From Sphingomonadales bacterium (lineage in GTDB: Bacteria > Pseudomonadota > Alphaproteobacteria > Sphingomonadales > Sphingomonadaceae): a stretch of 51,610 nt of DNA. Numbering within the stretch: position 1 is the first letter of the stretch; every line of letters starts with the position of its first letter. The stretch lies in the NCBI GenBank assembly GCA_027483465.1, contig JAIXUQ010000118.1:1-51610 (forward strand). Reading direction: 5' to 3'. Shown piece after piece: positions 33,605 through 36,007 of the stretch. Both the position numbers and the translations under genes were made by a program. The notes under the pieces were generated by a model. That model was not told the DNA's origin, made no database searches, and saw only the letters and a program-made list of their open reading frames with translations.

Positions 33605-35082
33605 GGGCGGCGCTGGCGGCGCTGGCCGCCCTGCTGGCCGGCAGCGCCGCCGCTGCCCCAAGGCCCGTCACCCCGCCCGCCCTGCCGCCCTCCATGTCGC
33701 CCGCCACGGCCGAGGCGGTGCGCCTGATCGATGCCTGGGCCGATGCGGCGCTGGTCTATGGCCGCTGGCCGGCCTATTCGATCGCCATCGGGGAGCGTGG
33801 CCGGCTGGTCTGGTCGAAGGGCTATGGCCATGTCGATGCCGATCGACGGGTGCCGGCGCGCGGGGACACGATCTATTCGATCTGCTCGATTTCCAAGCTG
33901 TTCACGGCGGTGGCGGTGATGCAGCAGTGGGAGGCCGGCCGGCTGCGGCTGGACGAGCCGATCACCACCTATCTGCCCTGGGCGGCGCACCGGCCCGATG
34001 GCCGCGATGCCATTCCCGTCACGCTGCGCACCCTGCTCACCCATTCGGCCGGCGTGCAGCGCGACAGCGAGAGCGGCAGCTGGACCGGGCCGGATTTCCG
34101 CTTTCCCACCCGCGCCGAATTGCAGGCCGAAATCGGCCGCCAGCCGCCGCTCTATCCGGCCGGGCGCTTCTATCAATACAGCAATATCGGGATCAGCCTG
34201 GCCGGCGAGGCCGCCGCCAGCGTGGCCGGGCGCGATTATGCCGGCCTGGTCACCAGCAGCATCATCGAGCCGCTTGGTCTGGCCGATACGCGGCCCGATC
34301 ATCCCTATCATCTGATCGGCACCCGCATGGCGCTGGGCTGGAGCCCGCTGGCCCGCGATGGCAGCCGCACGCCGCTCGCCCGCTTTGATGCGCGCGCCAT
34401 CACCCCGGCGGCCGGCTTCACCAGCACGGCCGAAGATCTGGTGCGCTTTGGCCTGTGGCAGCTTGATCTGTTGAAACAGGATGTGCTGCCGGCGCGGCCG
34501 GGCGTGCTGCGGCCCAGCACGCTGAAGGAAATGCAGCGGGTGCAGTTCGTCGATCCGCCCACCGGCACCAGCCTTGGCCTGGGATTCTTCAGCGAGGTGG
34601 ATGGCGAAGGCCATGTGGTGGGCCATGATGGCAGCTGCCCCGGCTATCACACCACGCTGCTGATCCGCCCCGAGAGCGACACGGCGGTGGCGGTGATGAC
34701 CACCGACAATCACGAAGTGTGGGCCGATACGGTGCAGGTGCACCGGCTGCTCGATGCCCGCCGCCAGCACCAGTTCAAGGGCCCCGCCGCCGCGATCGTG
34801 CCGCTGGAGGATTATGCCGGCCGCTATGTTTCGGGCGTGTGGGACAGTGAGACGATCATCCTGCCGTGGAATGGCGGCCTCGTCACCCTTTCCCTGCCCG
34901 AAGCCGAACCGGCGGCGCATCTGGGTTTTCTGAAGCCGGTGGCGCCCGACCGGTTCCGCCGCATCGCCCCTGATGGCAGTGCCATGCACGAGGTGATCTT
35001 CCAGCGCGACACCAGCGGCCGGGTGGTGGCCAAGCAGGAGTTTTTCCAGCGCAGCCGCCGCGAACCGCCGCCCGAACTGTAA
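33601..35082 (+). CDS. secreted class C beta-lactamase-like serine hydrolase
   Basis: A 493-residue protein with signal peptide MRAALAALAALLAGSAAAA. The SxxK catalytic tetrad S96-ISK99 lies in YSICSISKLF, the second motif is Y193-S-N195 in YQYSNIGIS, and a third HxG-like element HDGSCPGYH replaces the KTG of true penicillinases. This is the esterase/D-aminopeptidase branch of the beta-lactamase C superfamily. A C-terminal domain of about 120 residues follows. The ATG overlaps the monooxygenase stop (ATGA), which argues for joint function: ester produced, then hydrolysed. The palindromic repeat element begins directly after the TAA. Confidence 0.88.
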   Translation: MRAALAALAALLAGSAAAAPRPVTPPALPPSMSPATAEAVRLIDAWADAALVYGRWPAYSIAIGERGRLVWSKGYGHVDADRRVPARGDTIYSICSISKLFTAVAVMQQWEAGRLRLDEPITTYLPWAAHRPDGRDAIPVTLRTLLTHSAGVQRDSESGSWTGPDFRFPTRAELQAEIGRQPPLYPAGRFYQYSNIGISLAGEAAASVAGRDYAGLVTSSIIEPLGLADTRPDHPYHLIGTRMALGWSPLARDGSRTPLARFDARAITPAAGFTSTAEDLVRFGLWQLDLLKQDVLPARPGVLRPSTLKEMQRVQFVDPPTGTSLGLGFFSEVDGEGHVVGHDGSCPGYHTTLLIRPESDTAVAVMTTDNHEVWADTVQVHRLLDARRQHQFKGPAAAIVPLEDYAGRYVSGVWDSETIILPWNGGLVTLSLPEAEPAAHLGFLKPVAPDRFRRIAPDGSAMHEVIFQRDTSGRVVAKQEFFQRSRREPPPEL

Positions 35083-35267
35083 AGCGTTTTCCGACCAATC
35101 TGGATTGGCGGCACGGTGCGGAATTTGGTTCGTGGCAAGAAGCGAGGAGGGCGCGATGCAGTCGCCATCGCAACCGACGAGCAACGCCGCCACGGGCCGA
35201 ATTCCGCCCGCCCCGCAGGGGGCGCCGGCACGGCGATGACGCCGATCCAGATTGGTCGGGAAATGCT
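35083..35267. repeat. 185-bp palindromic element with 27-bp pairing arms
   Basis: The left arm (35083-35109) and right arm (35241-35267) pair over 27 consecutive positions: 24 Watson-Crick and three G-T/G-U (35086:35264, 35090:35260, 35106:35244). Sub-stems lie inside: 35117-35137 with about 35190-35210, GCGATG/CATCGC near 35153-35171, and GCCCC-GCAG-GGGGC near 35210-35225. The element starts at the base after one stop codon and ends eight bases before the stop of the convergent SDR. It looks like a MITE- or REPIN-type repeat, or a structured RNA. I noticed no second copy in the window. Confidence 0.65.
35156..35239 (+). CDS. 27-residue micro-ORF inside the palindromic element
   Basis: ATG 35156 follows AGGAGG (35144-35149) at ideal spacing and runs to TGA 35237-35239. 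The peptide is MQSPSQPTSNAATGRIPPA then PQGAPARR: Pro/Ser/Ala/Arg rich, with no hydrophobic segment. The ATG lies in the 5' strand of a small hairpin (GCGATG/CATCGC). The Shine-Dalgarno is the best argument for translation; chance remains possible in GC-rich DNA. I know of no homologue. Confidence 0.25.
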   Translation: MQSPSQPTSNAATGRIPPAPQGAPARR

Positions 35268-35275
35268 CTTGCGGG

Positions 35276-36007
35276 TCAGCGCAGCATCAGCCCGCCATCG
35301 ATGGCCAGGCTCTGCCCGGTGATATAGCTGGCGGCCGGGCTGGCCAGAAACACGATGGCGTGCGCCACTTCGGTGGGCAGGCCCCAGCGCTGCATCGGGA
35401 TGGCCTTCATCAGCCGGCGCTCCCGCTCCGGATTCTGGCGGGCGCCTTCGGTCATGCGGGTTTCGATGAAGCCGGGCGCCACCAGATTGACCCGCACGCC
35501 ATCGCCGGCCCATTTGTCGCCCAACGCGCGTGTGAGGCCGAGCAGCCCGGCCTTTGACGCGGTGTAGGCCGGGGTTTCCTTCAGGGCCAGGAAACTGGCC
35601 AGGCTGCCAACATTGACAATGCTGCCCCGCGCCGCCTTCAGCAGTGGGTGCAACCGCACCGAAAGGTCCATCGCCGCGTTCAGATTGGTGTCGATGACGG
35701 CTTCAAACTCCTCCTGCTCATATTCGCGCGCCGAACCGCGGCCGGCGTTGTTGATCAGCACATCCAGATGCTCGAAATGCGCCGCCACTTCGGCGCGCGC
35801 CTCCGGCCAGGTGAGATCGGCCTGGATATAGGCCACGCCATCGGGCGGACCGTCATAGCATTCGATGTGGCTGCGGGTGCCGGTGATCGTCACCCTGGCG
35901 CCCAGCCCGACGAAATGTTCGGCCACTGCCTTGCCGATGCCCTGCGTGCCACCGGTGACCAGCACGGACCGGCCGCGCGCCCAACTGCCGTTGCCAAGCC
36001 CATTCAT
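35276..36007 (-). CDS. short-chain dehydrogenase/reductase
   Basis: Classical SDR, 243 residues: VTGGTQGIGKAVAEHF nucleotide loop, LINNAGRGSA, catalytic Ser in NVGSLASF and YxxxK in PAYTASKAG, then RVNLVAPGFIETRM and the C-terminal ITGQSLAIDGGLMLR. The Rossmann loop TGGTxGIG suits FabG-like or sugar/steroid dehydrogenases. ATG 36007 overlaps the stop of the upstream SDR by four bases (ATGA), so the two are coupled and probably act in series or as a heteromer. The palindromic element sits 8 bases downstream of its stop. Confidence 0.92.
   Translation of the reverse strand: MNGLGNGSWARGRSVLVTGGTQGIGKAVAEHFVGLGARVTITGTRSHIECYDGPPDGVAYIQADLTWPEARAEVAAHFEHLDVLINNAGRGSAREYEQEEFEAVIDTNLNAAMDLSVRLHPLLKAARGSIVNVGSLASFLALKETPAYTASKAGLLGLTRALGDKWAGDGVRVNLVAPGFIETRMTEGARQNPERERRLMKAIPMQRWGLPTEVAHAIVFLASPAASYITGQSLAIDGGLMLR

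Follow-up and report, generated by a model that had tools for sequence, protein, structure and literature searches.

The element at the locus

The window, by which we mean the whole 51,610-nucleotide stretch that was analysed, contains a mobile element of 187 bp (35082-35268, + strand) that occupies almost the whole gap between two convergent genes. The left neighbour carries a beta-lactamase-family domain (PF00144), a family that includes many serine hydrolases, and ends with a TAA stop codon at 35080-35082; the right neighbour is a short-chain dehydrogenase, and the facing ORF ends at 35276. The unit was defined from recent copies elsewhere, in which GAGC...GCTC is bounded by TA on either side. 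Judged from the G476 copies and the empty site described below, the left TA lies at 35080-35081 and forms the stop codon together with 35082, the first base of the element, which is A here where the consensus has G. The right target dinucleotide, at 35269-35270, is TT, one change from the TA consensus of other copies. An earlier note on this DNA had placed the start of the element at the base after the stop codon; it in fact begins with the last base of TAA, while the observation that it nearly fills the convergent gap stands.

Terminal inverted repeats of the kind by which a MITE is recognised are present as two 31-nt arms (35083-35113 and 35237-35267), which are 87% complementary with G-U pairs in addition and which resemble IS630-family ends. 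From 35083:35267 inward, 28 pairs follow one another without a break, and the only non-Watson-Crick pairs among them are G-U, at 35086:35264, 35090:35260 and 35106:35244. Both the uninterrupted outer pairing and the restriction of arm mismatches to these three G-U positions had been reported in the earlier note and are borne out. Within 34900-35450 the arms are the sole inverted-repeat pair reported. Seven such pairs (arms of at least 20 nt, at most 400 apart) occur in the whole window, and none of the other six matches the arms in length and complementarity together (31 nt at 77%, 20 nt at 90%).

The two repeats are predicted to pair as the basal stem, P1, of a branched fold. Inside it lie P2, with tandem G.A mismatches, and two small hairpins, P3 (35211-35221, CCCC/GGGG) and P4 (35223-35235); in many sphingomonad copies a second, inverted domain sits at P4. 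The lower stem of P2 is formed by 35114-35136 (columns 34-56 of alignment A2, see below) and 35187-35210, and the conserved core, with its tandem G.A internal loops, by strand A (35134-35159) and strand B (35164-35191). The + strand has an MFE of -124.9 kcal/mol (z = -10.6), and none of 200 shuffled sequences was equally low. Folding of the - strand is weaker (-104.4, z = -6.6). A known RNA family was considered and rejected: Rfam 15 gave no match at the gathering threshold in nine loci, and around the window element only two chance-level matches, far below gathering, were returned.

A 27-codon ORF at 35156-35236 (+ strand) is present, as had been noticed earlier, and its frame is not conserved. 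In the 214 of 231 copies that were examined, the commonest length of the ORF from the same ATG was 5 codons (37 copies), and 27 codons were found in 14. The conserved CGATGC is one half of a stem, and the 27-codon ORF had no Pfam match. We therefore reject a peptide gene, given the unconserved frame and the lack of a Pfam match; the ORF is probably no gene, and the earlier suggestion of a structured RNA "with a peptide" is not supported in its second part.

Copies in Sphingomonadales and in other bacteria

A blastn search of the element's own genome for further copies, as proposed in the earlier note, returned 18 matches, made up of 13 near-full-length copies (78-100% identity, window copy included), one 62-bp piece and four arm self-matches; relatives were found in other Sphingomonadales. 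These 13 copies refute a chance palindrome or one-off terminator, against which the covariation described below and the z of -10.6 also speak, and we give that reading next to no weight. Across genomes, blastn found matches in 20 of 60, own included, several of them weak.

Genomes were then searched with R1, a covariance model of the conserved core. R1 matched in 16 of 24 genomes of the genus, which we judge to be Sandarakinorhabdus because loci from it are identical to named contigs, and, under stricter filters, in 85 of 396 genomes of the order (24 of 84 genera), the own genome being included in both counts; several of the order-wide matches outside the host's family are weak. In another genus the core was found in 62 of 121 genomes. 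The core pattern occurred in at least 116 stretches of named genomes. Among the matches listed, at least 28 carry names from outside these bacteria (16 Bacteroidales, 8 Verrucomicrobia, 2 Aureimonas, 2 Mesorhizobium), at least 5 are labelled Bacillus or Arthrobacter and were taken for misnamed, and the remaining stretches are from Sphingomonadales or unspecified Alphaproteobacteria.

The core motif is thus also present in contigs of Rhizobiales, Verrucomicrobia and Bacteroidales. Six genomes of other groups, four of them metagenome bins, were searched with R1. One genome each of Verrucomicrobiia, Chthoniobacterales, Aureimonas and Mesorhizobium gave 41, 1, 10 and 3 copies, respectively, and a Muribaculaceae and a Bacteroidales genome gave 12 and 1, with weak E-values in both. 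A copy in a further bin (L123) has sphingomonad-like ends and may represent contamination; other folded copies from Verrucomicrobia and Bacteroidales have distinct, partly AT-rich arms of their own where these are not cut by the contig end. Carriage by phages or plasmids was rejected, as viral contigs contained no exact core match and the whole element had no blastn match in plasmids. Among the open-access papers that our literature searches listed, we found no title or displayed abstract with a description of this element family.

Insertion at TA

A filled and an empty version of one site were found in G012 and G001. The filled site reads GGCCTAGAGCGG...CCGCTCTAGAGAAAC and the empty site GGCCTAGAGAAAC, indicating a clean insertion; G003 has an internally deleted copy at the same position. 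This closer pair was used because more distant empty sites were too diverged for the junctions to be placed. Taken alone, it permits a duplication of either TA or CTAG. G476 carries six copies: four are almost identical and lie in separate places, and two close ones have a common left flank, which reflects a duplicated stretch. In each of the six, TA immediately adjoins GAGCG...CGCTC or GGGCG...CGCCC on both sides, and at two of the four a CTAG duplication is excluded because the next bases differ between the two sides. Taken together, the empty site and the G476 copies show that the element inserts at TA with a 2-bp duplication. In a crude scan of 31 genus copies, with six loci left out, TA was found on the left of 18, on the right of 19 and on both sides of only 11.

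The window element has no transposase of its own: it is 187 bp long and its longest named ORF is 27 codons. Its ends alone can persist, since six short derivatives of about 40-130 bp (L241, L242, L243, L244, L437 and L223, the last in G003) keep both ends and lack the full core; L244 amounts to a very short palindrome, and L437 is a copy that lacks P2.

We also considered a gene associated with the element in cis and rejected it by clustering of flanking genes and ORFs. The flanks of many copies had no gene in common: no cluster of the 232 predicted flanking genes covers more than 4 loci. When the 3,413 ORFs that surround 115 loci were clustered, the four biggest groups consisted mostly of translated element sequence, and the fifth comprised 8 loci at scattered distances.

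The ends resemble those of IS630 elements

Patterns derived from the arms also match places in the genus that have no core. At two of these (L235, L236) the match is the outer end of a gene with a DDE_3 domain, and with a 72-aa piece of one such gene as query, 7 of 24 genus genomes proved to contain relatives. One of these, L285, is an IS630-like element about 1,056 bp long that is bounded at either end by arm-type repeats; the transposase is spread over two frames, with a DDE_3 match at E = 2e-26 and weak helix-turn-helix matches, among them HTH_Tnp_IS630 below its cut-off. In L291, repeat-like ends about 1,055 bp apart flank an IS630-like gene. When the window arm was compared with all 33,866 26-mers of five IS loci, the seven closest were the seven IS ends, at 18-22 of 26 positions; the next best 26-mer matched at 16. 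IS630 elements are of the Tc1/mariner type.

Against this, the 72-aa IS630 query had no match in the host draft genome. In G476, the 12 end matches (at most 3 mismatches) are all accounted for by the six copies of the element, and thus no mobiliser appears next to these recent copies. Single end matches at L237-L239, L432, L435 and L436 were accompanied by no IS630 gene in the ORF list, by eye or by motif scan, nor was the one at L245, which was inspected by eye only. At L234 (1776-3376, where the contig ends) a gene for an IS66-family transposase adjoins an IS630-type end, probably one IS inserted into another.

A non-autonomous mobile repeat, the first of the possibilities raised in the earlier note, is supported by the 13 copies, the empty site, the TA ends of recent copies and the IS630-type ends. 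One could alternatively see the element as a palindrome of the REP/REPIN kind, with a Y1 (RAYT) transposase that moves it in the form of single-stranded DNA. Its hairpin with mismatches, its strand-specific fold and its frequent position at 3′ ends would fit, and movement as a single strand would explain selection on one strand. REP/REPIN sequences are not known to cause a TA duplication when moved by the Y1 enzyme; the TA duplication found here and the ends in common with IS630 elements speak against this origin, which we rate as very improbable.

The fold is maintained on one strand

We next examined covariation. Of 37 extracted copies, alignment A1 holds 28 and A2 holds 32; L022, L034, L036, L037 and L050 were left out of A2, and the partial matches L038-L041 and L048 were not extracted. 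Alignment A3 has 34 rows, picked for length and dissimilarity out of 165 copies; all of these rows except L221 and L208 come from outside the genus. As rows of an alignment are related, they are not independent in any of the counts that follow. In A2 (32 rows, 71 pairs), 95.9% of cells are paired, compared with 84.0% when partners are shuffled and 33-45% when they are slid, and double changes occur in 46 of the 71 pairs. In A3 the corresponding values are 95.0%, 83.5% and 32-54%. The covariation test on aligned copies suggested in the earlier note, done here with shuffled and slid controls, was therefore positive in both alignments.

If the pairs were subject to plain DNA decay, G-U and A-C cells would be equal in number. 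G-U cells outnumber A-C cells 209 to 30 (117 to 10 in the arms alone), and in A3 95 to 11, or 63 to 11 when one nearly fixed G-U pair is set aside; without L221, L208 and L209 the A3 numbers are 86 and 10. The nearly fixed pair is kept in 32 of the 34 A3 rows. The argument from wobble pairs, put forward for this single copy, was right and holds across the family. A mismatched pair in the core also varies in concert: A.G (117) and C.A (52) predominate over A.A (9), C.G (6) and C.C (3), counted over those 187 of 224 distinct cores that fit the search expression, although the events are fewer than these counts since the states partly follow subfamilies. The fold is thus kept on one strand, as an RNA would need. 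As to the fold, the structured RNA proposed earlier is upheld by the covariation and by the same-strand excess of G-U over A-C.

Template switching occurs in quasi-palindromes, and some of the covariation could stem from this process. The element might then be an ordinary MITE whose palindromes are kept at the level of DNA, by copying of one arm onto the other, with no RNA involved. The arms are long palindromes, and among copies of 82-88% identity double changes that keep a pair number 16,824, compared with 1,863 that break it (copy pairs not independent), both of which fit this mechanism. Template switching yields perfect pairs, however, with no preference for G-U over A-C (209 versus 30), and it would neither hold a G-U pair in 32 of 34 rows nor make a non-canonical pair covary. 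We regard it as an unlikely account of the element, if one of the more serious rivals.

Genomic context and the level of selection

Contexts were determined with a home-made gene caller on de-duplicated copies; 93 of 226 copies could be classified, the others being far from a called gene (74), without two neighbours (58) or of low G+C (1). Copies lie between convergent genes in 37 of 93 cases, compared with 20 of 180 background pairs (Fisher P = 9e-8), and between divergent genes in 16 of 93, compared with 26 of 180. Beside co-directional genes, 24 are in sense and 16 in antisense orientation. In the own genome, a called stop codon adjoins 10 of the 13 copies on one side or both; the target TA followed by the element's G reads TAG.

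These data bear on whether the element is an RNA of benefit to the host, a bidirectional terminator or a 3′-end stabiliser of convergent genes, recruited and then kept at each site. The enrichment between convergent genes (37 of 93), the 10 of 13 own copies next to a stop codon and the ability of both strands to fold would all be expected of such an RNA. Against it, there is no clear sense/antisense bias (24 versus 16), and for none of the 13 own copies were both flanks found again around a copy from another genome, in a DNA-level comparison limited to one genome per species. Where the ends of copies were inspected by eye, including those in G476, no T tract followed. Enrichment between convergent genes is also reported for pneumococcal repeats and IS elements, where PMC3049150 takes it as a sign of parasitic elements, so that the location requires no host function.

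Copies at the same site in different genomes provide a further test. Eight of ten pairs, all at least 93% identical and three of them from one trio, were used; the two left out (57% and 70% identity) aligned poorly, and for one the shared site is doubtful. Watson-Crick pairs had changed to G-U 14 times and to A-C 21 times, few events in all (44 and 47 with the two omitted pairs). Among eight G000 copies, compared in 28 pairs that are not independent, there were 182 G-U and 56 A-C changes. Over all core pairs, likewise not independent, the G-U share was 0.59-0.60 above 93% identity, 0.72-0.74 at 82-93% and 0.62-0.67 below. The lack of a G-U excess at shared sites suggests that what is selected is the lineage that spreads. 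Most simply, one can read this as filtering of the fold during spread and decay afterwards in resident copies; such a course argues against a function for the host at individual sites, and we rate a host-beneficial RNA as improbable. Sharing of both flanks between genomes is rare (five pairs by a strict test), but this scarcity counts for little because most of the sampled genomes are too distant.

A constant core between changing arms

In four copies (L031, L033, L035, L049) the arms are unrelated to those of the window element beyond a few end bases and yet complementary to each other. In other words, the arms can be replaced by unrelated sequence that is again complementary, with the core retained. 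Arms of the second type (AGGCCGTGAACTCATAAATGG) also surround a quite different structured interior of about 190-270 bp in G003, G008, G012 and G017. Members of this second folded family, with second-type arms and a different core, are L252 (1502-1767), L257 (1255-1520), L250 (1502-1767), L273 (1502-1768) and L263 (1502-1689); G008, which carries the family, has no R1 match. The plasmid record L330, which is annotated, has an IS5-family gene with an end that resembles the second arm type when compared by eye. In a wider plasmid search for IS5-type ends, most matches (24 of 39 records) came from Xanthomonas and lay within a hypothetical protein. A link between this arm type and IS5-family ends is suggestive only.

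Variant forms also occur. Distant Sphingomonadales copies, among them L117, L139, L146 and L174, are longer, with P4 extended by a second domain that resembles an inverted, related core (AAGGAGC and GCGACG motifs). G001 and G003 share a divergent copy at one site (L078, L079; E about 1e-4 to 7e-4) whose core has a different internal loop (GCAGCCGCAGCCGCGATG).

It is conceivable, and we put it forward tentatively, that the core acts as an RNA module with a function of its own, passed from phylum to phylum through exchange of terminal repeats. It would then be carried by IS630-type ends, by IS5-like ends and, in Verrucomicrobia and Bacteroidales, by other, unmatched ends, with the arms complementary throughout. 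Were this so, the RNA itself would be selected, for example through recruitment of a host factor that aids spread.

Discussion

Taken together, these data show a dispersed MITE with IS630-like ends that inserts at TA, with duplication of 2 bp, and has a conserved, strand-specific fold. As a short non-autonomous transposon, it would depend on an IS630-family (DDE) transposase, by which it is most likely moved in trans. We hold this account as a whole to be highly probable. At 3′ ends between convergent genes, TA and the element's G could restore a TAG stop codon. From the strand-specific fold we infer that RNA is produced from the element. One speculative role for the fold, which we rate well short of probable, is that transcripts reading through the element fold up into a closed form resistant to nucleases, which would leave insertions nearly harmless. 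Lineages that keep the fold would then spread, since their insertions do little damage, and resident copies would subsequently decay. This idea of harmless insertion is weakened by the copies between divergent genes, which show that promoter regions are not avoided.

Several small bacterial repeats invite comparison. RUP, the 107-bp repeat unit of pneumococcus (PMC2229807), offers a close parallel: as described in PMC2229807 and PMC3049150, it inserts at TA, has ends that resemble IS630-Spn1, folds tightly with its ends paired and is enriched between convergent genes. It is reported to be AT-rich and nearly confined to S. pneumoniae and S. mitis, whereas the present element has a GC-rich branched fold, a conserved core, different ends and a distribution over several phyla. 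ERIC/IRU/RU-1 shares TA termini and an intergenic location and is described as a transcribed stem-loop able to affect mRNA stability; it differs in its 7-bp terminal repeats (compared with arms of about 31 nt), its enterobacterial hosts, its length and its fold (PMC2229807). The Correia/NEMIS repeats of Neisseria also have TA ends, with 24-bp terminal repeats, and action of RNase III on their RNA stem has been proposed; the account in PMC2229807 gives them stem-loops and an IHF site, with no tandem G.A core or branched fold, and we set them apart by that description. CIR sequences of Caulobacter and Brucella are alphaproteobacterial intergenic repeats of about 110 bp with conserved RNA models, but they are described as two separate arms joined by a linker, with GANTC motifs (PMC2229807), whereas the present element is closed by its own ends; these, too, are set apart by description.

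The usual view of small mobile repeats is that they are remnants of insertion sequences in the course of decay. For annotators, the covariance model now covers a repeat found in about a fifth of the sampled genomes of the order (85 of 396). That a fold with a non-canonical core is kept on one strand, with changed ends, across distant bacteria suggests selection at the level of RNA, and hence that some bacterial MITEs are selected as RNA. It also raises the question of whether the fold aids the spread of the element, and with which partner.
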